Source of the DNA: a virus
Length of the DNA: 45,995 bases
Virus record (IMG/VR): IMGVR_UViG_3300046660_000282
Coordinates: 1 to 45,995 of that record
Strand: one strand, 5' to 3'
Under the pieces are notes generated by a model. It had not been told where the DNA came from, made no database searches, and saw only the letters and a list, made by a program, of their open reading frames with translations. Shown here piece after piece: positions 3,068 to 26,748 of the stretch (position 1 is the stretch's first letter; the number at the start of each line of letters is the position of its first letter). The translations under genes and the position numbers were made by a program.

Positions 3068-3274
3068 TTACTCCTTAACGGGCTCGATTGAAAAGATTTC
3101 GGACATTGCGCCTTCATAGGCAAAAACGTCGAAATGGTCTGGATTGTCGCTATCCTCTTCAATGAACATATCAGAGAACATTGTGAGAATGAACGCCTTT
3201 GCCGCATCAACCGTTTCCACGGTCTTGAGCAGCTTTTTCGCGCCATTCGCGATTGTCTCGATTTTGTAGGCCAT
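3068..3274 (-). CDS. hypothetical acidic protein, 68 aa
   Basis: MAYKIETIANGAKKLLKTVETVDAAKAFILTMF..., then strongly acidic (IEEDSDNPDHFDVFAYEGAMSE). First gene after the promoter at 3291-3333; RBS AAGGGATTGAAGAA. The pattern beta, helix (VDAAKAF), beta is like many small phage proteins that end in a conserved strand. Unknown. Confidence 0.7.
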   Translation of the reverse strand: MAYKIETIANGAKKLLKTVETVDAAKAFILTMFSDMFIEEDSDNPDHFDVFAYEGAMSEIFSIEPVKE

Positions 3275-3290
3275 TTCTTCAATCCCTTGT

Positions 3291-3333
3291 TTGACTATGT
3301 AAGGATATTAAAATCATTTCCTTACATAGTCAA
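3291..3333 (-). promoter_or_regulatory. palindromic promoter variant (TTGACTATGTAAGGA)
   Basis: Arms at 3291-3305 and 3319-3333 are exact complements. Both differ from the other cassettes by C to T (ACTATG for ACCATG), a compensated change that keeps the symmetry. -35 TTGACT, 17 bp, -10 TAATAT. Confidence 0.85.
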
Positions 3334-3342
3334 TACCTTTTT

Positions 3343-3663
3343 TCACTTAAATTTCACTTTGACGCTATGCCAGCCAGCCTTAACGCTTACAACGCGTTTT
3401 CCAGCCGGAACAAACGTTGTGTTGCCTACCTGCTTAAACTTGCCATTCGACAAGCGTCGAATCACGTTGAACGGTTCAAAGCCTGTTACAGCGTTCCACG
3501 CGGTAAAGAATGCCGCATCTCTTGCAACGCTATCGCCACGCAAGTTTTCGCTTGTGGCATGAATGCACTTGCCATTGTGCCACAACGTAAACGCGTTAGT
3601 TTGCGTTTCGTAGCACTTAATTTCCACTCCCATTTTATAGCGGGAAAAAATAAGGTTCTGCAT
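3343..3663 (-). CDS. hypothetical beta-rich protein, 106 aa
   Basis: MQNLIFSRYKMGVEIKCYETQTNAFTLWHNGKC..., beta-rich throughout with a conserved-looking AWNAVTGFEPFNVIRRLSNG core and a basic end (SVKAGWHSVKVKFK). RBS AAGGAGCTAAGCCA. A shorter start at MGVEIKC (residue 11) is possible. Four bases downstream of the 3668 gene, hence one operon. Function unknown. Confidence 0.7.
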   Translation of the reverse strand: MQNLIFSRYKMGVEIKCYETQTNAFTLWHNGKCIHATSENLRGDSVARDAAFFTAWNAVTGFEPFNVIRRLSNGKFKQVGNTTFVPAGKRVVSVKAGWHSVKVKFK

Positions 3664-3948: not shown

Positions 3949-4128
3949 TTAGTTGTTTCGTTCAGCTTCGATTGCTTCCATTGCCTCACGAATAACGCGA
4001 GTCATGTCGGAAAAATCGCCGTGGTTTTCGATGAAAGTAATGGCCCACTCTTTCAGTGAAGGGGAAATGATTCCCAACTCAGTCAAGACCATTTTTTCCT
4101 TCAAAGCCTTTGTTTCTGCGTTTGCCAT
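3949..4128 (-). CDS. hypothetical helical protein, 59 aa
   Basis: Start MANAETKALKEKM with AAAGGAAATACGGAA upstream; the extension MVNKGNTE is the common promoter leader being read through. Helix-rich, with LKEWAITFIENHGDFSDMTRVIREAMEAIEAE, which could be a short two-helix bundle. Sole gene between the palindromic promoter 4145-4187 and the 3918 hairpin. Confidence 0.7.
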   Translation of the reverse strand: MANAETKALKEKMVLTELGIISPSLKEWAITFIENHGDFSDMTRVIREAMEAIEAERNN

Positions 4129-4144
4129 TTCCGTATTTCCTTTG

Positions 4145-4187
4145 TTGACCATGTAAGGAACTTAAACGCTTTTCCTTACATGGTCAA
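4145..4187 (-). promoter_or_regulatory. palindromic promoter, 16-bp perfect arms
   Basis: TTGACCATGTAAGGAA (4145-4160) and its complement (4172-4187). -35 TTGACC, 17 bp, -10 TAAGTT on the minus strand. Confidence 0.85.
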
Positions 4188-4203
4188 TAGGCTTTTTAAA
4201 AAA

Positions 4204-4542
4204 TTACCATCTTTCGCCAGTAAGCCAAACTTTGAAGTTTTCAGGGAATTTCAAACCATAGGGCAAATCTTTGTTTGCGCGGCAGAACCTGTTATGGAGT
4301 GCAGGCTTTTCGCTATGCATCCATTTTTTGAAATCTTGATATTCCGGCAAAGCCGCATACATATCGTTTATCTTGTCGCGGTTATGGCAATAAACATAAC
4401 CGCCAAACGGTTGTGCCGTAACGCCTAATGCAGACATGCTGGCGACATAAGTGCGATATTCAGAAAAGAGCGGATGCGACTCATCTGCTTTAGTCGTAAC
4501 AGGCTGAATCGGAGCCATGGCGGCGCGTGACATATCAAACAT
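4204..4542 (-). CDS. hypothetical protein, 112 aa
   Basis: Start MFDMSRAAMAPIQPV, RBS AAAGGAACTAAGCAG. Pro-rich start, then aromatic-rich middle (FSEYRTYVASMSALGVTAQPFGGYVYCHNRDK) and a Trp/Phe-rich C-terminus (FPENFKVWLTGERW). It looks like a compact globular protein. Monocistronic under the promoter at 4559-4601. Unknown. Confidence 0.7.
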   Translation of the reverse strand: MFDMSRAAMAPIQPVTTKADESHPLFSEYRTYVASMSALGVTAQPFGGYVYCHNRDKINDMYAALPEYQDFKKWMHSEKPALHNRFCRANKDLPYGLKFPENFKVWLTGERW

Positions 4543-4558
4543 CTGCTTAGTTCCTTTG

Positions 4559-4601
4559 TTGACCATGTAAGGAAGATATGACTCTTTCCTTACATGGTCA
4601 A
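4559..4601 (-). promoter_or_regulatory. palindromic promoter, 16-bp perfect arms
   Basis: TTGACCATGTAAGGAA (4559-4574) and its complement (4586-4601). -35 TTGACC, 17 bp, -10 TATCTT. The leader down to the start codon (TTGACCATGTAAGGAA... AAAGGAACTAAGCAGATG) recurs in sister cassettes. Confidence 0.85.
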
Positions 4602-4609
4602 TAGGCTTT

Positions 4610-4894
4610 TTAAATTTTATTCAGCGCCAAGCGCAAATCATACGTGCGCTTGATATCTGCTCTAATCGCTGCAATCGTCTCAGCGCTAAGACCGTCAACA
4701 ATCATGAACGGTTCAACGATATTAGCGCCGCTCAAGTTTTGAACCGTGATAATCACGCCGCTAGCCATATACTTATCGGTATTGGCCTTTCCGATATCCC
4801 TGTTAGCACTTGCCAGCGTTCCTATATCATGCGCCTTGGATTGCAACAAATCTTTCGCGAGTTGCGCGGTGCGGGAAAGTTTCTTTGCAGTCAT
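4610..4894 (-). CDS. hypothetical protein, 94 aa
   Basis: MTAKKLSRTAQLAKDLLQSKAHDIG... has a basic helical N-terminus, a short beta segment (GVIITVQNLSGANIV), and a final helix (AETIAAIRADIKRTYDLRLALNKI). The ATG overlaps the stop of the 4894 gene (shared base), so translation is coupled. Unknown. Confidence 0.7.
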   Translation of the reverse strand: MTAKKLSRTAQLAKDLLQSKAHDIGTLASANRDIGKANTDKYMASGVIITVQNLSGANIVEPFMIVDGLSAETIAAIRADIKRTYDLRLALNKI

Positions 4895-5148: not shown

Positions 5149-5499
5149 TCACATAGCCACTTTGATAATAGTTGCGTCTTCAAAGCAAGCCCGGTAAAGC
5201 TGACCGCGAGTCACGCCTATCATGCGATAAGTTGAAAGCTTGCGAGTAGAACCGGGAACGGGAACGCCGCAAATCAATGCGCCGGTCTCAGTCCCTTCTA
5301 TCACATCGCCTTCAATGTCAAAGACGTTATATGTGACTCGCATGCCGCCGCGTTCAGGATGAAACTCTTTTTCCACAGTCACGGCGCGTTCCACAATGTT
5401 TGTTAGAACCATTGTGCCGCGTGCATATGGCTGCATATCAAACTTGACGGTTTTTCCAGTCATGTTATGCGCGAAAGATTCGTTTAGAAAAGAAGGCAT
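5149..5499 (-). CDS. hypothetical beta-rich protein, 116 aa
   Basis: Start MPSFLNESFAHNMTGK (RBS AAGGGATTAAGCAA); the MVKQGIKQ extension is leader. Alternating strands (TVKFDMQPYARGTMVLTNI, VTYNVFDIEGDVIEGTETGALICGVPV) suggest a beta-barrel or OB-like fold. The C-terminal half (KLSTYRMIGVTRGQLYRACFE) is mixed. First gene of its unit. Unknown. Confidence 0.7.
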   Translation of the reverse strand: MPSFLNESFAHNMTGKTVKFDMQPYARGTMVLTNIVERAVTVEKEFHPERGGMRVTYNVFDIEGDVIEGTETGALICGVPVPGSTRKLSTYRMIGVTRGQLYRACFEDATIIKVAM

Positions 5500-5515
5500 T
5501 TGCTTAATCCCTTGT

Positions 5516-5558
5516 TTGACCATGTAAGGAACTTAAACGCTTTTCCTTACATGGTCAA
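5516..5558 (-). promoter_or_regulatory. palindromic promoter, 16-bp perfect arms
   Basis: TTGACCATGTAAGGAA (5516-5531) and its complement (5543-5558). -35 TTGACC, 17 bp, -10 TAAGTT. Confidence 0.85.
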
Positions 5559-5593
5559 GCGTCCTTTCTCACAATTATGTGAAAAAGAACATT

Positions 5594-6181
5594 TTAAAAA
5601 CTAATTTCGCAGTAAACGAAACCGTCTTCATCGTACCATGTACTTGCCTCATGATAGCGGGCAATTTCGCTTAGCTTGTCGCCCAATGAAACAAGCTTTT
5701 TGCGTTCTGCTGGCGTTGCATCCCATTTAGGATTTCCGCGATTTTCAATCATGAGCGATGTTAACCGCTCATATTCTTCTTGATCGCTTCCGAATAGATC
5801 AAGTTGCTTGCGGTCCCAATAACCCACGCCGTGGCCTTGTGACGTGAACCACAAGTCACGACCGGCTTGCTCCGAATCATAATCCTCGCGTTCATAGGCT
5901 TGTTCAAGCAAATCCTTTGCCGCCGTTTCAAAGGCTTGGCAGAACGCAACAATTGTGGCAAGCGAATCAGGATGCAATTCCGCGAATCCTACATCACTTG
6001 GCAAATTACCGTCAATTTGCCCCTCTTCCAAAGCATGTTGATTTTCATCCGAAAACCAATCATCTGAATCAACGCGATTGGCGCAGTCCGTGAAAAACAT
6101 AGCTTCGATAAAGCCTTGCACGAAATAAGGCAACGCCTTGAATTCCGGCTTGTGCTTTCCATTCATCTGAAATTCTGGCAT
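5594..6181 (-). CDS. phage protein with WFTSQGHGVGYWDR motif, 195 aa
   Basis: Residues about 110-125 (LWFTSQGHGVGYWDRKQL) correspond to the FWLTRNGHGAGFWDR signature of a widespread phage family of unknown function, normally followed by a GDKLSE-type segment and an acidic aromatic C-terminus. Both are seen here (SLGDKLSEIARYHEAS, WYDEDGFVYCEI). The N-terminal part (FVQGFIEAMFFTDC) is also typical. Full length for the family, with an insertion between the two motifs. Driven by the promoter at 6210-6238. Family assignment is from memory of the motif. Confidence 0.75.
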   Translation of the reverse strand: MPEFQMNGKHKPEFKALPYFVQGFIEAMFFTDCANRVDSDDWFSDENQHALEEGQIDGNLPSDVGFAELHPDSLATIVAFCQAFETAAKDLLEQAYEREDYDSEQAGRDLWFTSQGHGVGYWDRKQLDLFGSDQEEYERLTSLMIENRGNPKWDATPAERKKLVSLGDKLSEIARYHEASTWYDEDGFVYCEISF

Positions 6182-6209: not shown

Positions 6210-6238
6210 AATGTAAGGAAAGATTCGCGCCGCGTCAA
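6210..6238 (-). promoter_or_regulatory. promoter with single TGTAAGGAA box
   Basis: Minus strand TTGACG, 17 bp, TACATT. ATGTAAGGAA overlaps the -10 in reverse orientation. Confidence 0.65.
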
Positions 6239-6260: not shown

Positions 6261-6320
6261 CCACTTTTTGTTCCACATATGTTCCGTTTTAAAAATATTG
6301 CAGCCTCGCCGTTCCCATCC
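6261..6320 (-). repeat. copy 1 of a three-copy non-coding element
   Basis: Minus strand: GGATGGGAACGGCGA, then TTTTTAAAACGGAACA, then GGAACAAAAA. The same order of blocks occurs on the plus strand at 9485-9520 (partial) and 10516-10570. It lies between a promoter and a terminator, in a stretch without a gene. A tiny ORF ATG-GGA-ACG-GCG (MGTARLQYF) is embedded and ends in TTTTTAA. Confidence 0.7.
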
Positions 6321-6335
6321 CAAGGATTGAAAAAA

Positions 6336-6361
6336 GACTAGCGCGATTCGTCGCGCTAGTC
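6336..6361 (-). terminator. Rho-independent terminator
   Basis: GACTAGCGCGA-TTCG-TCGCGCTAGTC, 11-bp perfect stem. On the minus strand it is followed by TTTTTTC, ending the unit of the genes 6374-6951. Confidence 0.9.
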
Positions 6362-6373
6362 AAATTAAATTTT

Positions 6374-6523
6374 TCAATTAACCAAAATAGCGGCATATGT
6401 CGCGCCAAATAAACGCGTAACATGATTGCGCAGCGTGGCACTAGCTGCGCTATCCATAACGCCCATTCTGTTACGATAGGCGTTGACATAGATAGCAGCA
6501 TTTTCCAAGATATGCGGATTCAT
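6374..6523 (-). CDS. hypothetical protein, 49 aa
   Basis: MNPHILENAAIYVNAYRNRMG... Helical and compact, with a hydrophobic last third (LFGATYAAILVN). RBS AAGGAGCTAGGTA eight bases before the ATG. Its stop lies 13 bases before the terminator at 6336. Unknown. Confidence 0.65.
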   Translation of the reverse strand: MNPHILENAAIYVNAYRNRMGVMDSAASATLRNHVTRLFGATYAAILVN

Positions 6524-6534
6524 TACCTAGCTCC

Positions 6535-6729
6535 TTAAAGCTCTACTGTTATCGAACGATTATGACGCGTTGCCATAAGAGCGGATTTCACAAACATGGT
6601 TTGTGCATTAATCATCACGTTACGAGTGAATTCGCGATAGGAAACGGCGCGCTTGTTGCCAATTACAGCACAGCGCAATTCCGCTCCTTTCCAAGTCTTT
6701 ACGTCTCTAAAAAACTCTCGCCTTGTCAT
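6535..6729 (-). CDS. hypothetical basic protein, 64 aa
   Basis: MTRREFFRDVKTWKGAELRCAVIGNKRAVSYREFTRNVMI..., with Arg/Lys throughout. A central strand (LRCAVIGNKRAV) leads into a helix that ends RHNRSITVEL. RBS AAGGAGCTAAGCAG. In one unit with 6374 and 6742. Nucleic-acid binding would suit the charge, but no motif is recognised. Confidence 0.65.
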   Translation of the reverse strand: MTRREFFRDVKTWKGAELRCAVIGNKRAVSYREFTRNVMINAQTMFVKSALMATRHNRSITVEL

Positions 6730-6741
6730 CTGCTTAGCTCC

Positions 6742-6951
6742 TTAAAGCCCTAACGTTGATTTGATTGCTTCATATCTATAGCAAATCCCGGCAAGGCTTG
6801 CAATAGAGAAAATCAAAGTTATAAAAATTAAGCAATAGCACATCATTATTTCGGCGTTACGTTTCGCGATGAATTCGAACGCGTCAAGATTGATTTCCTT
6901 GACAACGTTTTTCGAATTAATTTGAGAAACGTTATTGCGACGGTTTGTCAT
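6742..6951 (-). CDS. single-pass membrane protein, 69 aa
   Basis: Start at MTNRRNNVSQIN. The polar N-terminus (about 35 residues, net basic) precedes a clear membrane helix (MMCYCLIFITLIFSIASLAGICY), then a short tail. Orientation N-in is expected from the basic N-terminus. Its Shine-Dalgarno GAGGGA lies in the 3' arm of a perfect 10-bp hairpin (6960-6985), so translation may be controlled by opening of that hairpin. Confidence 0.7.
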   Translation of the reverse strand: MTNRRNNVSQINSKNVVKEINLDAFEFIAKRNAEIMMCYCLIFITLIFSIASLAGICYRYEAIKSTLGL

Positions 6952-6959
6952 GGCTTTAT

Positions 6960-6985
6960 CCCTCATAGCTTGATTGCTATGAGGG
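6960..6985 (-). promoter_or_regulatory. hairpin sequestering a Shine-Dalgarno
   Basis: Minus strand CCCTCATAGC-AATCAA-GCTATGAGGG, then ATAAAGCC-ATG. The RBS GAGGG is fully paired in the right arm. It fits an RNA thermometer, a protein-binding translational operator or a coupled-translation switch. Confidence 0.7.
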
Positions 6986-7015
6986 ATAATGTAGCGAACA
7001 ATTATGAAAGAAAGG

Positions 7016-7294
7016 TTAACGCAGTGAAGCTTTTCCCACGGCTCGTTTATAGACTTTAAGCGTCACTGCATCCTCGCCAGTCTCATATATGCCGCGCAAT
7101 TCGGCAAGCAAGGGCGCATAGTCCGTTTCCGTCGCCCGCTTGCCCTTGGATAGCCAAATGGGGCTTGCGCCGCCGTGTTGCCCTACATGAGCGTAACACG
7201 TTATATCACCGCTCTTGTTCCATTTGTCAGTAGGGAAATAAGCGGTGATTTCACCTTGGTATTTGCGAAATATTACGGGCAATGTGTCAATCAT
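7016..7294 (-). CDS. small phage protein, 92 aa (TLPVIFRKYQGEITAYFPT type)
   Basis: MIDTLPVIFRKYQGEITAYFPTDKWNKSGDITCYAHVGQHGGAS... I associate this pattern (FR...G.I.A.FP, CY.HVGQH..A) with small hypothetical proteins of alphaproteobacterial phages and prophages. Its C-terminus is helical and basic. The start overlaps the 3' end of the 7291 gene by 4 bp (ATGA). Function unknown. Confidence 0.75.
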   Translation of the reverse strand: MIDTLPVIFRKYQGEITAYFPTDKWNKSGDITCYAHVGQHGGASPIWLSKGKRATETDYAPLLAELRGIYETGEDAVTLKVYKRAVGKASLR

Positions 7295-7692
7295 TCGCCT
7301 TGCTCCTCATCTTCTCCATATGCAGACGGAATTTTCTTGCCGGTATGATCACAAGTCAATTCCGTGTCTTCATAGTTGATATCAACCGCAACCACTTTCC
7401 AGCCGTCGCGGATATCGTTAGCAACGCTATCCATAACGGTTCTAAGATTTTCCGTCACTGCGTCAAACGATAGTGCAGCGCCATCATTAGTGATGAAAAA
7501 GAGCGGATAACCGCCTAAGTCAGTGTAGCGACCGGCGCGCAGCGTGGCTTTCAAATCAGCCACGGTTTCAATCCGATTGTGACCGCGATTGTAGTTTGCA
7601 CGTAGCGGCGGATTAAGACTCCAGTTGTCTTTCCGCGTGTCATACAACGCGCCGTCACTGGAAGAAACGAAAAGATGATTTGGAAGGGACAT
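7291..7692 (-). CDS. hypothetical protein, 133 aa
   Basis: MSLPNHLFVSSSDGALYDTRKDNW... Strand-rich N-terminal half with a GGYPLFFITNDGAALSF core, a helix (SVANDIRDGWKVVAVDINYEDTEL) and an acidic tail. The C-terminal segment CDHTGKKIPSAYG resembles a one-knuckle metal site but has a single Cys. RBS AAAGGAGTTGGCGCA. Translationally coupled to the 7016 gene. Confidence 0.7.
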   Translation of the reverse strand: MSLPNHLFVSSSDGALYDTRKDNWSLNPPLRANYNRGHNRIETVADLKATLRAGRYTDLGGYPLFFITNDGAALSFDAVTENLRTVMDSVANDIRDGWKVVAVDINYEDTELTCDHTGKKIPSAYGEDEEQGE

Positions 7693-7725
7693 TGCGCCAA
7701 CTCCTTTAGGCGTTTCGATTTCCTT

Positions 7726-7754
7726 ACATTGAACCTATTAAAGATTCAAGTCAA
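7726..7754 (-). promoter_or_regulatory. promoter with TTCCTTACATT box
   Basis: Minus strand TTGACT, 17 bp, CAATGT; the box AATGTAAGGAA overlaps the -10. Drives 7016-7692. Confidence 0.6.
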
Positions 7755-7757
7755 GCG

Positions 7758-8006
7758 CTATTCTTCACTTTCTAGATAAAAATCAAACGATTTCCAGCAA
7801 GAGCCGGTCGCCTCTTTTGTATGCCGCGTCTCAGCGTAATATTCACCGCACCCGCAAGGGATATAACCATCGCTTTGATCAATCGTCAAATCGTTCGCCA
7901 TGGCCCATTTCTTGACATGAAATTCAGGATCAATTGACTCGTTTGGCGCAAGGCGGCGCAACAATTCTTGAGTCCCGCTTTGATTGTGATAGATCGAAAT
8001 GAACAT
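7758..8006 (-). CDS. hypothetical protein, 82 aa
   Basis: MFISIYHNQSGTQELLRRLAPNESIDPEFHVKKWAMAND... A short beta start, then helices. CGCGEYYAETRHTKEATGSC has three Cys and one His that could make a small metal site. RBS AAGGAGCTAAGCAG. Second gene of the unit beginning at 8287. Unknown. Confidence 0.7.
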   Translation of the reverse strand: MFISIYHNQSGTQELLRRLAPNESIDPEFHVKKWAMANDLTIDQSDGYIPCGCGEYYAETRHTKEATGSCWKSFDFYLESEE

Positions 8007-8033
8007 CTGCTTAGCTCCTTAAGCGTTAAAGAA

Positions 8034-8054
8034 TCCTGCCCTAGCAGGGCAGGA
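8034..8054. other. intercistronic hairpin (8-bp stem)
   Basis: TCCTGCCC-TAGCA-GGGCAGGA between the 8066 and 7758 genes. Minus-strand flanks (TAAGCCTTAAAATT ... TTCTTTAACGCTT) match those of the hairpins at 961 and 3918. Confidence 0.7.
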
Positions 8055-8065
8055 AATTTTAAGGC

Positions 8066-8287
8066 TTAAAAGCCACAAGCCTTTAAGAAACGTGTTTCAT
8101 CAAAGCGCGGATTAGTGCAGCGCAATTCCGCCGCGAAATGTTCTGCGACAAATCGCACGTCGTCGGCAGACATAGAACCTTTAAGGTTAAGAATGATCGA
8201 CGCGATGTTAGCAAAATGTCTATGCTCCATCGGATGTAGCGCGCCGATTGCATCTTTGCGCATTGCGGCTTTGGTGGAAAGTGTCAT
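8066..8287 (-). CDS. hypothetical helical protein, 73 aa
   Basis: MTLSTKAAMRKDAIGALHPMEHRHFANIASIILNLKGSMSADDVRFVAEHFAAELRCTNPRFDETRFLKACGF. Helix-rich, with two clear amphipathic helices (ANIASIILNLK, ADDVRFVAEHFAAELR). RBS AAAGGAGATTAGGCC. First gene after the promoter at 8327-8355. The shape is like a small DNA-mimic or adaptor protein but no family is recognised. Confidence 0.7.
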   Translation of the reverse strand: MTLSTKAAMRKDAIGALHPMEHRHFANIASIILNLKGSMSADDVRFVAEHFAAELRCTNPRFDETRFLKACGF

Positions 8288-8326
8288 GGCCTAATCTCCT
8301 TTAAGGCGTTGATTGACTGTGACCTA

Positions 8327-8355
8327 AACATATTCTTACATTCGAGTCACGTCAA
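8327..8355 (-). promoter_or_regulatory. promoter with GAATGTAAGAA box
   Basis: Minus strand TTGACG, 17 bp, TATGTT; AATGTAAGAA lies at the 3' end of the spacer. Drives 8066 and 7758. Confidence 0.7.
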
Positions 8356-8379
8356 GAGGCTTTTTGAATTTTTTATTCG

Positions 8380-8592
8380 TTACCATGTCCTGCCATGAAA
8401 ATTGCTTTGCGACGTGTCGCCTTCAATCCATTCTTCTTGTAGAGTCTTTTTCTTTGCCTCTTTCATTTCCGCTTTGAATTCGCGAATCGCCTCTTTCTTA
8501 GTATAATCGAGATAGGAGCGGCGCACTAGATAGCCGTCAACTATCTCCGATATATTCCACGCGCCACTATGTGGCGAACGTTCTACTAGCAT
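8380..8592 (-). CDS. hypothetical protein, 70 aa
   Basis: MLVERSPHSGAWNISEIVDGYLVRRSYLDYTKKEAIREFKAEMKEAKKKT... An N-terminal beta hairpin is followed by a long Lys/Glu helix; YTKKEAIREFKAEM is the pattern of proteins that fold a beta-hairpin on one helix. It starts after an AAGGAGCGGTTTAA that includes the stop of the 8593 gene. Unknown. Confidence 0.7.
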   Translation of the reverse strand: MLVERSPHSGAWNISEIVDGYLVRRSYLDYTKKEAIREFKAEMKEAKKKTLQEEWIEGDTSQSNFHGRTW

Positions 8593-8709
8593 TTAAACCG
8601 CTCCTTTGTAATAGTTCCAGCGACCGTTACGACTCTGGATTCGGTATAGGTCGGAATTCTTCAATCCGCCAAGTTTCAGCCACTCGGCTTTGCTGATTCG
8701 CTGTTTCAT
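8593..8709 (-). CDS. hypothetical basic protein, 38 aa
   Basis: MKQRISKAEWLKLGGLKNSDLYRIQSRNGRWNYYKGAV. A helix with an SKAEWLKLGG start (like HTH recognition pieces) and a short beta end. The ATG overlaps the stop of the 8706 gene (ATGA), so it is made by coupled translation. It ends 1 bp before the next start. Small enough that only its tight packing supports it. Confidence 0.65.
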   Translation of the reverse strand: MKQRISKAEWLKLGGLKNSDLYRIQSRNGRWNYYKGAV

Positions 8710-9302
8710 CCGAATCGTTCCCCATCTTCCGAAAACGTATATTCATTGATACGAATAATGTCATCAACATTTTCGTTGCTCATGAAATAGTCATAGGCGC
8801 GTTCTAGTTCGCGATAGGTCCAACGCATGAAATCGCGCAACGATGCAGCGATTTCATCACATTGTTCATTTGTGGCATAGTCGCCAGTCATGCCGTTGTA
8901 TGTGTCGATATCGGTGCAATTTTCATGCATGTAATGCCCGTTATGCTTTACCTTAGCAGTGAGGCGATAGAACGCCTTGCGCTGCGTTTCCTGCAAAGCG
9001 GCGGCAATGTTCTGCAACTTATCGCAACCGCCCGTATGTGCCGCAATGGCGGCGCTAGCGCCTTTCTTATAGGCGTAACTACCTTCAAAGCAAGCCCCAT
9101 CGCCTTGCGAAGAGAATCCGCTGAAATAGATACGATCAACCGTTATCCCAATCAATGCGCCGCACTCTTTCACGTCTTCATACGTGTATTCATACCAGTC
9201 ATCGTCAGCGCTTGCGGATTTCCACCAATTGCGCGCCGCGTCTTTCGCGGACTCGCTCAATTCGTCAAACTGGTAAACCGTTGTCTCGATTGTTTCCGGC
9301 AT
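8706..9302 (-). CDS. conserved phage/bacterial protein, FSGFSSQGDGACFEG family, 198 aa
   Basis: Start MPETIETTVYQFDELSESAK. The block VYQFDELSExAKxxARxWW, a YEDVKECGALIGITVDRIYFSGFSSQGDGACFEGSYAYKKGA core, and GHYMHE with Asp-rich ends define a family I recall being labelled antitoxin-of-toxin-antitoxin-stability-system in Rhizobiales and phages; the label is not experimental. Length is typical. First gene of the 9302-8380 unit, from the promoter at 9340-9368. No toxin partner is visible. Confidence 0.8.
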   Translation of the reverse strand: MPETIETTVYQFDELSESAKDAARNWWKSASADDDWYEYTYEDVKECGALIGITVDRIYFSGFSSQGDGACFEGSYAYKKGASAAIAAHTGGCDKLQNIAAALQETQRKAFYRLTAKVKHNGHYMHENCTDIDTYNGMTGDYATNEQCDEIAASLRDFMRWTYRELERAYDYFMSNENVDDIIRINEYTFSEDGERFG

Positions 9303-9339
9303 GGCCTTAGCTCCAATGTGAAGGCGTTTCGATACACGC

Positions 9340-9368
9340 AACATAGATGTAAGAAAATATCGTGTCAA
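9340..9368 (-). promoter_or_regulatory. promoter with TTTTCTTACATC box
   Basis: Minus strand TTGACA, 17 bp, TATGTT, with TTTTCTTACATC directly before the -10. Divergent from the plus-strand promoter at 9404. Confidence 0.8.
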
Positions 9369-9377
9369 GTGAGAATT

Positions 9378-9409
9378 TTTATAAAATTAAATTATTTTCC
9401 CTATTGACT
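9378..9409 (+). repeat. 32-bp direct repeat, copy A (also 10415-10446)
   Basis: An AT-rich 21-mer (TTTATAAAATTAAATTATTT plus one T), two variable bases and CTATTGACT recur exactly 1,037 bp downstream. The repeat carries the -35 of a plus-strand promoter in both places. Confidence 0.85.
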
Positions 9410-9432
9410 TCGATAGTGGAATCACTTAAATT
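9404..9432 (+). promoter_or_regulatory. plus-strand promoter without a long ORF downstream
   Basis: TTGACT, 17 bp, TAAATT. A transcript would run from about 9439 into the strong hairpin at 9525-9551. Confidence 0.65.
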
Positions 9433-9438
9433 AAAACT

Positions 9439-9552
9439 ACATCAAAGAGAGCGGTAGCGGTAGCGAAGCGGGAGGTGGGGAGAATGAGGGATGGAATTTT
9501 TTTAAAACGGAACAAAACGAGAATAAGCCGCCGCTACATTAGCGGCGGCTTT
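9439..9552 (+). ncRNA. candidate short transcript (copy 2 of the three-copy element)
   Basis: Lies between a plus-strand promoter and a strong terminator, antisense to nothing but the last codons of the 9556 gene. Contains GCGGTAGCGGTAGCGAAGCGG, GGATGGAA and TTTTTTTAAAACGGAACAAAAC, blocks shared with the elements at 6261 and 10516. It holds a possible 28-codon ORF at 9484 (GGAGG eight bases upstream) that reads into the terminator. Existence of the RNA is inferred. Confidence 0.45.
9525..9551. terminator. bidirectional terminator hairpin
   Basis: AAGCCGCCGCT-ACATT-AGCGGCGGCTT, an 11-bp GC-rich perfect stem just after the stop of the gene at 9556. The minus-strand continuation ATTCTCGTTTTG has a weak U-run, the plus strand TTTAGG. 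Confidence 0.75.
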
Positions 9553-9555
9553 AGG

Positions 9556-9777
9556 TTAAAGTTTAGATAATAATTTCTCTGCTATCGCCAAGGCTTGGCC
9601 GGGCGACACTTCATAATTGCCGGAAAAATCCATGCAATTATTTTTGAATATGTCAAAGATTTTTTGTTTCTTAACATATTCAAGCGCCGCGCTTTGAGTG
9701 TTAAACGAATCTTGGAATCTGTCGCCAGACATGACAATCCAAGAACCTTTTCCGTTATACTCTACTGAGTAATCCAT
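9556..9777 (-). CDS. hypothetical protein, 73 aa
   Basis: Start MDYSVEYNGKGSWIVMSGDRF; the ATG follows the stop of the 9779 gene by one base. Strands (SWIVMSGD) then helix (SAALEYVKKQKIFDIFKN) and a C-terminal helix (GQALAIAEKLLSKL). Alpha/beta small protein of unknown role; last gene before the terminator at 9525. Confidence 0.7.
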   Translation of the reverse strand: MDYSVEYNGKGSWIVMSGDRFQDSFNTQSAALEYVKKQKIFDIFKNNCMDFSGNYEVSPGQALAIAEKLLSKL

Positions 9778-9778
9778 G

Positions 9779-9997
9779 CTATTCCACCTTTGCAATCAAG
9801 CCGTCGCGCATAGTGACCTTTGCGAAAAATTCCCTGCCGCCAATTTGCGGATTGATTGCCGGTCTATGCGCCACAACAAAAGAGCCGGTCGCCTTGTATT
9901 CCTCGCCAAACATAGACGTTTCGCGATACTTGAGCGGCTTTCCAGTCGCCTCTTTAAGCTCTTTCTTGCTCTTATAACCTGTAACCAAAAGTGTCAT
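9779..9997 (-). CDS. hypothetical protein, 72 aa
   Basis: Start MTLLVTGYKSKKELKEATGKPLKY. The strand, KSKKELKEATGKPL helix, and C-terminal REFFAKVTMRDGLIAKVE form a pattern (FFAxVTMxDGxIxKV) that I recall in small hypothetical proteins of alphaproteobacterial phages. RBS AAAGGAGCTAACGAC. First gene after the promoter 10055-10083. Unknown role. Confidence 0.72.
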   Translation of the reverse strand: MTLLVTGYKSKKELKEATGKPLKYRETSMFGEEYKATGSFVVAHRPAINPQIGGREFFAKVTMRDGLIAKVE

Positions 9998-10020
9998 GTC
10001 GTTAGCTCCTTTGTTAACTA

Positions 10021-10083
10021 CGCTCAAGTTGTCTTGAGCGTTGTTTGATAAGTCACCTTAGATGTAAGGAAACGTTTCGTCAA
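10021..10083 (-). promoter_or_regulatory. promoter with TTTCCTTACATC box plus leader hairpin
   Basis: Minus strand TTGACG (10078-10083), 17 bp, TAAGGT (10055-10060), box directly before the -10. The leader forms CGCTCAA-GACAAC-TTGAGCG (10021-10040) before the RBS. Confidence 0.75.
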
Positions 10084-10092
10084 GCGGTTTAA

Positions 10093-10350
10093 TCAGTTAC
10101 TATTTGAAATTTCCAGAGCCTCCATCTCCAATTCATTATAGAGCTTGTTAAGCATGGCTTGCCGCTCATTATAAATTTGCATATCGGCATAGAGTCGCAC
10201 CATGTCGCCCAAATAATCGCGGCCATGCGGGCGCAATTCAGACATTGCCTCAATAGCCTTAAGCATGTAAGCGCGGGCGTCAAGTCTAGCTTGAACGTGA
10301 GACTCACGCGTTGCGCCATTGATATTAATGATGGGTTTCATGTAAGCCAT
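10093..10350 (-). CDS. hypothetical helical protein, 85 aa
   Basis: MAYMKPIININGATRESHVQARLDARAYMLKAIEAMSELRPHGRDYL... After a short strand and an INGxTRE turn, the protein is two helices with HGRDYLGDMVRLYADMQIYNERQAML between. I have seen the INGxS....Q.......L..A...L....PHGRDYQ pattern in several phages; function is not known. RBS AAAGGAGCAAGGCGC. Monocistronic under the 10378 promoter. Confidence 0.78.
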   Translation of the reverse strand: MAYMKPIININGATRESHVQARLDARAYMLKAIEAMSELRPHGRDYLGDMVRLYADMQIYNERQAMLNKLYNELEMEALEISNSN

Positions 10351-10377
10351 GCGCCTTGCTCCTTTGTTGATGCAGTG

Positions 10378-10406
10378 ATCTTAGATGTAAGGAAAAGGAA
10401 GGTCAA
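10378..10406 (-). promoter_or_regulatory. promoter with TTTTCCTTACATC box
   Basis: Minus strand TTGACC, 17 bp, TAAGAT; the box lies directly before the -10. Divergent from the plus-strand promoter at 10441. Confidence 0.8.
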
Positions 10407-10414
10407 CAAAAATC

Positions 10415-10446
10415 TTTATAAAATTAAATTATTTTGTCTATTGACT
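10415..10446 (+). repeat. 32-bp direct repeat, copy B
   Basis: Same AT-rich block and CTATTGACT as 9378-9409; only the two bases between them differ (GT for CC). Confidence 0.85.
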
Positions 10447-10469
10447 ACATATCAGAATCAGCATATTCT
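10441..10469 (+). promoter_or_regulatory. plus-strand promoter reading into the repeat island
   Basis: TTGACT, 17 bp, TATTCT. The transcript would cross the 10516 element, the GGAACA array and possibly the 22-codon ORF at 10892. Confidence 0.65.
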
Positions 10470-10515
10470 AAAAACAATTCAAAGACGCCGCAAAAGCCCG
10501 AAGGGCGAGGCCGAG

Positions 10516-10570
10516 GATGGGAACGGCGAACCTGCCCGCTTTTTAAAACGGAACAAAAGGGGAACAAACC
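10516..10570 (+). repeat. copy 3 of the three-copy element
   Basis: GGATGGGAACGGCGA, then TTTTTAAAACGGAACAAAAG. The first block is identical to that at 6306-6320 on the minus strand. The embedded ATG-GGA-ACG-GCG reading frame (MGTANLPAF) ends in the TTTTTAA block as at 6261. Confidence 0.75.
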
Positions 10571-10693
10571 GTGAACAGGAACAAAACGGGAACAAAGATA
10601 TAACATATAGGGAACAAAACTGTAACAAAAGGTGAACAGCGGAACAAACCGTGAACAAAACGGGAACACGGCAATGTTCACGGTTTGTTCCCC
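10549..10693 (+). repeat. array of about 12 GGAACAAA-type short repeats with a 19-bp inverted repeat
   Basis: Units such as GGAACAAAAC, GGGAACAAACC and GTGAACAAAAC follow each other every 10-12 bp, about one helical turn. GGGGAACAAACCGTGAACA at 10559-10577 recurs exactly inverted at 10675-10693 and nearly (CGGAACAAACCGTGAACA) at 10640-10657. Such phased short repeats are typical of protein-loading sites at origins or partition sites. Confidence 0.85.
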
Positions 10694-10697
10694 TTGA

Positions 10698-10739
10698 TTT
10701 TTAAAAAATTTTGAAATAATTTTAAATAAAATTGAAACG
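10698..10739. other. AT-rich stretch next to the repeat array
   Basis: Forty bases with almost only A and T between the GGAACA array and a 12-bp palindrome CTGGCGCGCCAG (10740-10751). A possible DNA-unwinding element. Confidence 0.55.
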
Positions 10740-10760: not shown

Positions 10761-10850
10761 TTTCTCGTGTCAAAAAATGGGAGTCTGTGATGAAGGAAAA
10801 ATGGGACAGCGTGATAAAAAAATTACGAGTCTGTGATGAATGAAAAAACC
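10761..10850 (+). repeat. four tandem 22-24-bp repeats (iteron-like)
   Basis: Units at 10761-10782, 10783-10806, 10807-10828 and 10829-10850. Units 2 and 4 share GTCTGTGATGAA then GAAAAA; units 1 and 3 are looser (CTCGTG-TCAAAAAATGGGA, CAGCGTGATAAAAAAA). Period and number match iterons of plasmid-type replication origins. Confidence 0.7.
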
Positions 10851-10911
10851 GGCTCTCTCGATCCTCACGTTGCGATAAGGAGGATCGCGTCATGGGAGAG
10901 ATGAGCCGGTT
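10847..10911 (+). promoter_or_regulatory. leader stem-loop covering a Shine-Dalgarno
   Basis: AACCGGCTC (10847-10855) pairs with GAGCCGGTT (10903-10911) and CGATCCTC (10859-10866) with GAGGATCG (10880-10887). The inner helix hides the AAGGAGG that serves the ATG at 10892. Confidence 0.7.
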
Positions 10912-10960
10912 CTTAGCAGCGTTTGGTAAAGAGGTTGAAACCAAACGCTGTTTCTCGTGA
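10892..10960 (+). CDS. 22-aa peptide ORF with near-ideal RBS
   Basis: MGEMSRFLAAFGKEVETKRCFS, with AAGGAGG eight bases before the ATG. The coding region also contains a second perfect hairpin, CAGCGTTTGGT/ACCAAACGCTG (10917-10950), so a ribosome translating the ORF would melt it. This is the arrangement of a leader peptide that controls a downstream structure by attenuation or coupling. No long ORF follows on the plus strand, which makes its role unclear. Confidence 0.55.
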   Translation: MGEMSRFLAAFGKEVETKRCFS

Positions 10961-11236
10961 TAGATATTAAAACTGGTGCCACGTTCTAAGTGTATGCAGA
11001 GAAAGAGGTTACAAATCCAACATAGCAGGGCTTTAACCTGCGCACCATATTGTGACTAGACTAGCTTAGGCTGGTTTTCAGAGACCATTTGGCGAGCCTC
11101 CTGATCACTTTAGCAACAACCTTGTTGTGGTAAACCACATCTTTAAAAGAGGCTACTCGTCTGCCCGCGTCTCACTGACACGGTCTAAAGATTCGCTTCG
11201 TCACGGTTACTGTGATACAGACACTAAATGATTCTG
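10961..11236. other. 276-bp structured non-coding stretch
   Basis: No ORF is credible. Local pairings include GGTGC...GCACC (10976/11040) enclosing about 70 nt with an internal GCAGG/CCTGC arm, AGGCT...AGCCT and ACAACCTTGTTGT (11117-11129). On the minus strand the 10976-11044 part has the size and an anticodon-like loop (TTTGTAA) of a tRNA, but no canonical T-loop. It could be the structured tail of a plus-strand RNA. Confidence 0.4.
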
Positions 11237-26061: not shown

Positions 26062-26748
26062 TTAAATGGTGTATGGCACCCTGTCGCGGAAGCCGTTTTC
26101 TGATTTACATTGATTGATATAAGCATACACTTTATTAAATCTTTCGAAGGAAACATCCTCCAAACTAGGATCATACCTAAGAGCCGCGTCAATCAGTTCA
26201 ATATTCTCAGCCGCAAATTCATCTCTGCCGCAGAGGCAATCGGGGATGCGGGCGTTATCAATCGCGATACGCGGCACGCCCAATGCTTCACAAATCTCAA
26301 GGATTGTGGACTTGTAAAGGGTCTGGATCGGCTGAAGCGAAACGGCGGTGCTAAGCAGGCTGTACTTACCAAGCGCTTTCTCAGTCGCGTTCATGGTGCC
26401 CACGGTCCAGCAATTGAATTTCTTTGCTTCTTCGTGTAGTCTGGCCCAACGGTTTTCATCGTTGTAACGCTCTAGGTAATAAGGAACAGCTAAGGTTGAA
26501 TAATTATCGTGGAGCCACGGTAAAATTCGACACGCGAACCAGCCAAGAAATGGTACTTGTTTAACGAAATTTATGCCGTATACCTTATGAGAAATTCCGA
26601 GTCGCTCCGCAGCTTTGTAGCAAAGGATATATGCAACGATGCTATCAGTCCCGCTCAGCCCTATCATGAAGCCGGGAACCGGGGTTTGGGAGCGTTCCAT
26701 CTTATAGACCAAGCGATCCACGAGGGCGTCAAATTTGGGGTGAATCAT
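26062..26748 (-). CDS. nadE-like: NAD synthetase-like PP-loop ATP pyrophosphatase, 228 aa
   Basis: NadE makes NAD from deamido-NAD, ATP and ammonia. MIGLSGTDSIVAYILCYKAAERLG (residues about 28-50) is the PP-loop (SGxxDS) with the GTDS form. WTVGTMNATEKALGKYSLLSTAVSLQPIQTLYKSTILEICEALGVP (about 114-160) parallels NadE GTxNxSExxLGYFTxxGDxxxDxxPIxxLYKTQVxxLxxxLGVP, and the C-terminus has a GRDEFAAENIELIDAAL stretch like DExxLGxxYxxID. It lacks a glutaminase domain, so ammonia-dependent. The GD pair before the Pro is replaced (STAVSLQPI), so specificity could differ. Phage NAD genes counter NAD-depleting defences such as Thoeris. Confidence 0.83.
   Translation of the reverse strand: MIHPKFDALVDRLVYKMERSQTPVPGFMIGLSGTDSIVAYILCYKAAERLGISHKVYGINFVKQVPFLGWFACRILPWLHDNYSTLAVPYYLERYNDENRWARLHEEAKKFNCWTVGTMNATEKALGKYSLLSTAVSLQPIQTLYKSTILEICEALGVPRIAIDNARIPDCLCGRDEFAAENIELIDAALRYDPSLEDVSFERFNKVYAYINQCKSENGFRDRVPYTI

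Follow-up and report, generated by a model that had tools for sequence, protein, structure and literature searches.

LexA-like sites in a large phage genome suggest that it reads or soaks up the damage alarm of its host

The window analyzed here is a virus record of 46 kb, IMGVR_UViG_3300046660_000282, taken as the whole stretch of 45,995 nucleotides. It carries an intergenic element in three copies, of which copy 1 lies in the region 6261-6320 on the minus strand, copy 2 runs from 10515 onward on the plus strand, and copy 3 runs from 9489 onward on the plus strand. The core of this element is probably a protein-binding operator. With a probability that we put at roughly 0.5, it would be an operator for the host SOS repressor LexA, in the form of the direct-repeat box of alphaproteobacteria. 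Such LexA-like sites suggest that the phage may read or soak up the damage alarm of its host.

A preliminary description of this DNA had reported two sequence blocks common to the copies, and both are real. Block 1, the exact GGATGGGAACGGCGA, occurs at 6306-6320 (minus) and 10515-10529 (plus), and block 2, the exact TTTTTAAAACGGAACA, at 6280-6295 (minus), 9499-9514 (plus), and 10540-10555 (plus), with every copy placed between plausible genes as had been said. Copy 1 matches copy 2 at 81% over 59 nt and copy 3 at 88% over 26 nt. Copy 3 retains only GGATGGAA of block 1, and a 36-nt AT-rich segment ending in TTGACT is common to copies 2 and 3 (92%). Two properties had been missed: in every window copy block 2 continues into GAAC-N7-GAA(C/T), being the left edge of a GAAC-N7-GAAC box, and copy 2 extends into an array of half-sites at 10551-10690. 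A single box is present in each of copies 1 and 3, while copy 2 starts the array. The perfect direct repeat GAAC-N7-GAAC is found in copy 1 and the array of the window, and in copy 3 of the relative G001. The parts of the three copies are as follows.

6306 to 6320, minus strand: block 1 of copy 1, GGATGGGAACGGCGA, also present in G002
6270 to 6284, minus strand: single LexA-type box of copy 1, GAACATATGTGGAAC, about 31 bp upstream of the -35 hexamer of a 195-amino-acid gene (5594-6181), identical in G002
9489 to 9509, plus strand: shortened block of copy 3, GGATGGAATTTTTTTAAAACG, where G001 reads GGATGGGATTTTTTTTAAAACG
9510 to 9524, plus strand: box of copy 3, GAACAAAACGAGAAT, one letter off, with the perfect GAACAAAACAAGAAC in G001 and G003
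10515 to 10529, plus strand: block 1 of copy 2
10540 to 10550, plus strand: T/A block of copy 2, TTTTTAAAACG, lost in G002
10551 to 10667, plus strand: 12 direct half-sites (10 GAAC, 2 TAAC)
10676 to 10690, minus strand: inverted half-site pair closing the array, GAACAAACCGTGAAC, 18.9 bits

The element was found in three IMG/VR relatives only, namely G001 (120 kb), G002 (120 kb), and G003, the last being identical to G001 in the element region. Conservation in related phages, which had been named beforehand as a test, was thus found, and the proposed search for a fourth copy yielded none in the window, G001, or G002. Querying IMG/VR with each block separately returned mostly chance matches. 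When 55 loci were gathered via a 672-amino-acid neighbor, the array was present only in the loci of the three relatives, and some of the other contigs stop before the region. The element region is absent from the contig of the close relative G005, where the GAAC pairs are no element copies.

The LexA box of Caulobacter is GTTCN7GTTC (PMC12700426), and of 80 alphaproteobacterial lexA loci, 77 carry a GAAC-N7-GAAC-type box no more than 250 bp ahead of the gene. A position weight matrix of 17 columns was built, independently of the phage sequences, from 57 distinct boxes upstream of lexA in alphaproteobacterial contigs. With this matrix, the 11 top-scoring sites of the window all fell inside the three copies; their scores ranged from 14.8 to 22.8 bits, the median of the training boxes being 21.0, and the elements held the top six sites of G001 and the top three of G002. 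The box of copy 1 scored 20.9 bits, next to that lexA-operator median, and the box of copy 3 scored 15.6 bits in the window and 22.3 bits in G001, where it is the best site of the genome. In 200 shuffles of the window the mean maximum was 13.2 bits and 20.9 was reached twice, and a column-reversed matrix gave a maximum of 14.3 on the real window. With the GAAC letters excluded, the tested sites scored 2.7 to 7.0; the corresponding means were -5.3 in 66 background GAAC-N7-GAAC pairs and 4.9 in the training boxes. These flank and spacer scores lay above the background pairs or at their upper edge, with some array spacers at the weak end. Since the flanks of neighboring array sites are not independent, the independent tests are the copy 1 box and the copy 3 box of G001, both of which beat all 66 background pairs.

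The array itself comprises 14 GAAC/GTTC half-sites at a spacing of mostly 11 bp. Its direct half-sites start at 10551, 10562, and 10573; at 10579, 10590, 10601, 10612, 10623, and 10634; and at 10642, 10653, and 10664, with steps of 11 bp throughout apart from a single 6-bp and a single 8-bp step. It is the densest cluster of repeated 6-mers in the window and in G001 (seven copies, with four in the runner-up), and also in G002 by a narrower margin (five versus four). Across the window, G001, and G002, 2 of 56 core positions vary versus 28 of 87 spacer positions (Fisher p = 1.6 × 10^-5), and this contrast peaks at exactly the register of the GAAC half-sites. Of the earlier suggestions, that of protein-binding sites fits. 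The differences among the relatives are spread evenly over the three codon positions; therefore, the stretch does not look coding, and a coding reading of the array was rejected. An RNA decoy with GGA motifs was also discarded, because the conserved letters are GAAC and not GGA.

No LexA DNA-binding domain or S24 peptidase was found in G000 to G003. Furthermore, no protein was common to all four array-bearing phages that were compared (G001, G022, G025, and G026), a comparison limited by the differing spacer letters of the G025 array and by G022, G025, and G026 having no assigned host. These two results make a host ligand likelier. The nearest TerL sequences (39-41% identity) belong to the cyanophage Mwe-JY26 (Microcystis) and to phages of Ruegeria, Phaeobacter, Sphingobium, Rhodobacter, Erythrobacter, and other Alphaproteobacteria, so that the TerL relatives infect mostly Alphaproteobacteria.

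The position of the boxes relative to the following promoters and terminator bears on how a bound repressor could act.

10441 to 10469, plus strand: promoter-like TTGACT-N17-TATTCT upstream of copy 2, in a region mostly kept in G002 and G001
9404 to 9432, plus strand: promoter-like TTGACT-N17-TAAATT upstream of copy 3, with the 36-nt AT-rich segment in common with the copy 2 promoter
6210 to 6238, minus strand: promoter-like TTGACG-N17-TACATT of the 195-amino-acid gene, downstream of the copy 1 box
9525 to 9551, either strand: hairpin with T-rich tails on both strands, a probable bidirectional terminator closing copy 3

The first half-site begins 82 nt (copy 2) and 78 nt (copy 3) past the end of the second hexamer, which places it at about +75 and +71 relative to the inferred transcription starts. 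Copy 1 stands just behind a terminator at 6361-6336 that points toward it. At these positions the boxes would act by a roadblock, from upstream, or by titration, and not by occlusion of a promoter. Taking the sequences together with their phasing, conservation, and resemblance to lexA operators, we infer the binding of LexA and its effect as follows. Host LexA would bind the phage sites at infection. At copies 2 and 3, LexA bound about 70-75 bp downstream of the promoter would block elongation until it is cleaved in the SOS response, and at copy 1, LexA bound upstream of the promoter of the 195-amino-acid gene would modulate that promoter. The array would accommodate about six or seven LexA dimers per genome and, multiplied by replication of the phage genome, could also act as a sink that draws LexA off host operators. 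It is doubtful that this goes as far as a LexA sponge, in which the replication-multiplied boxes strip LexA from the chromosome and the SOS response is switched on without LexA cleavage.

Several points weigh against the assignment to LexA. No box overlaps the -35 or -10 hexamer of any recognized promoter, and the assignment does not account for block 1, the AT-rich tract, or the hairpins next to the array. The sub-arrays hold 3, 6, 3, and 2 half-sites, although one LexA dimer needs two, and the commonest array spacers, AAACCGT and AAAACGT, are somewhat unlike the spacers of lexA operators. The lexA genes behind the matrix were gathered with an N-terminal LexA sequence as bait, and the matrix boxes are mostly from Rhizobiales. 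The best TerL match is to a cyanophage, and the alphaproteobacterial host is deduced. Finally, the isolate phages examined for their resemblance to other array-bearing contigs carry no arrays.

Unlikely, yet the most serious alternative, is that the array serves as a partition site or as a replication origin of the iteron type, with a phage initiator or centromere protein binding its 11-bp repeats. The AT-rich tract would then be melted, with transcription from the 10441 promoter aiding the opening, and autoregulation would be the role of copies 1 and 3 as side sites. The 12 direct repeats at mostly 11 bp form the single such cluster per genome, and the tract adjoins them.

10697 to 10733, either strand: AT-rich tract directly after the array; the stretch 10694-10735 is 98% identical to G001 and 88% to G002

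Between this tract and a hairpin, at 10772-10847, lies a second set of three repeats of about 23 bp that contain TGTGATGA/CGTGATAA and are kept in the relatives; a CTGGCGCGCCAG palindrome is present as well. The cumulative GC skew turns near the array in all three sequences. It is this combination of tract, second repeats, and local skew turn that keeps an iteron origin in serious contention. However, the local turn also tracks gene strand, and the genome-wide skew minimum is about 54-56 kb away. The isolated boxes elsewhere match lexA operators, flanks included, and the array-bearing phages compared have no protein in common. No replication initiator was among the families listed for G001, where no search was directed at initiators as such. 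Should the ligand be something other than LexA, the array is a strong candidate for the replication origin of this phage group.

Less probable still is that the element acts as RNA, with GAACA repeats in non-coding transcripts, short or long, from the 9404 and 10441 promoters binding an RNA-binding protein or host small RNAs. The preliminary description had included a small RNA family among its suggestions, and this stays weakly possible to the extent that copies 2 and 3 follow promoter-like sequences at nearly equal distances. In addition, the arrays of unrelated contigs point toward the downstream gene in 66 cases versus 23. Conservation extends beyond the array to about 11050, over hairpins at 10844-10914 and 10918-10951 that are conserved and have up to three pairs changed on both sides between relatives. 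The 5′ leaders, however, show no more folding than shuffled sequence does (z +0.9 to -1.3), the T-run is absent from copy 2 of G002, and the hairpin at the array end is perfect in the window and G001 but mismatched in G002. Copy 1 has no recognized promoter ahead of it and stands behind a terminator. On the minus strand a T-run comes after the hairpin at about 10844-10914, which may be the terminator of the minus-strand genes to its right, the more natural explanation for this hairpin. No Rfam family was matched beyond chance level (E up to 10), and a known large structured RNA was rejected on this ground. An intrinsic terminator formed by block 1 and the T-run was rejected as well: a stem GGGCGAGG...CCTGCCC can be drawn in copy 2, but it folds like shuffles, and G002 has no T-run. 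The non-coding stretch 10955-11050, conserved at 75-91% among the relatives, contains tRNA-like pieces (GCAGGGCTTTAACCTGC...ACCA), and ARAGORN calls no tRNA there.

Another improbable candidate for the binder is a phage-encoded regulator that recognizes a LexA-like half-site in place of host LexA. Phages often encode their own regulators, and many small proteins here are unassigned, but neither a LexA-type domain in G000 to G003 nor a protein common to the compared phages was found. The suggestion that translated mini-ORFs serve as leader peptides controlling downstream genes was rejected: the three window frames read MGTARLQYF, MGTANLPAF, and MEFF as described and end at the same block, but in G002, which has TTCAAAGAACGG where the window has TTTTTAAAACGG, the copy 2 frame and its stop at the block are lost, so that the frame is not what selection keeps and the mini-ORF is not the conserved part; moreover, the ATG of neither copy 1 nor copy 2 is preceded by a ribosome-binding site at a sensible distance, no convincing plus-strand gene lies close behind copy 2, and a terminator lies ahead of copy 1.

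On suggestive evidence, arrays of a similar kind are also present in some viral contigs unrelated to the window. When IMG/VR was scanned for three half-sites in phase, at least 120 stretches were returned. Among the matches listed, 85 were non-coding by one definition, and 36 of those 85 had at least two further phased pairs in the vicinity. A control with the reversed pattern returned 85 stretches, 54 of them non-coding, of which 9 had two or more extra phased pairs. As the scan was only moderately above this control, it was not used as main evidence. Over the 113 pairs that the search pattern left free, again among the matches listed, the consensus was GAACAAANCGN. In the contigs of L336, L369, L376, L333, L371, L328, and L367, 11-bp-phased GAACAAAACG boxes occur, often as two opposed blocks; these arrays lie close upstream of terminase genes, and the contigs are otherwise unlike the window. 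G022, the contig of L306, carries five single boxes on the minus strand at 31, 110992, 111811, 112914, and 115561, each with a hairpin (for example GGTCGGAATTCCGACC) and a promoter-like -10 ahead of it, in a repeated promoter-hairpin-box module. Among the TerL proteins of array-bearing contigs, two resemble those of Rhodobacteraceae and Pelagibacter phages and one those of Vibrio and Pelagibacter phages, the hosts themselves not being established. If the LexA sponge were true, such arrays in unrelated viral contigs would represent a recurring phage strategy.

Other features of the window and its relatives were also recorded. The minus strand carries an intergenic promoter module in five copies (2399-2478, 3270-3350, 4122-4200, 4540-4624, and 5494-5561), each with a long dyad, TTGACCATGTAAGGAAA...TTCCTTACATGGTCAA, directly before small genes and kept at up to 98.7% in G002; these are probably early phage promoters with a built-in palindromic operator. 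A NAD synthetase-like gene is located at 26062-26748. The right half of G001 encodes NAMPT/NAPRTase, an NMN adenylyltransferase, and an NMN transporter, and together these genes constitute a salvage set for nicotinamide adenine dinucleotide (NAD+), perhaps directed against NAD-depleting defenses. The same half of G001 (alignment A5 members) also encodes a tyrosine-recombinase family protein and a T7 gp5.9-like RecBCD inhibitor.

Among known systems, the alphaproteobacterial LexA box (PMC12700426) resembles the element in its half-site, its 11-bp step, and similar flank and spacer letters. The boxes of lexA genes are mostly single pairs, whereas copy 2 of the element forms a 14-half-site array and no box lies over a recognized promoter. 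In the Bacillus phage GIL01, dinBox1/dinBox1b are sites beyond the transcription start from which host LexA also acts (PMC4551915); the likeness is that of a phage with sites for the host SOS repressor at such a position. GIL01 differs in its Gram-positive box type, its two adjacent sites, its temperate lifestyle, and its helper protein gp7, and it has no array. Iteron-type origins and parC-type centromeres resemble the array as tandem phased direct repeats beside an AT-rich tract, but here the unit matches a LexA box, isolated single boxes occur elsewhere, and no initiator or partition gene was recognized adjacent to the array. The motif of CtrA consists of TTAA half-sites that recur after a gap of 7 bp. 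On alphaproteobacterial phages, CtrA sites (PMC9437464) likewise represent sites of a host master regulator borrowed by phages, with another half-site and another regulator. Host LexA sites on phages are thus already known, and an 11-bp-phased array with two isolated boxes in a large phage without a recognized LexA is, as far as the literature was searched, a new layout, which raises the question of whether the phage listens to the damage alarm of its host or disables it.

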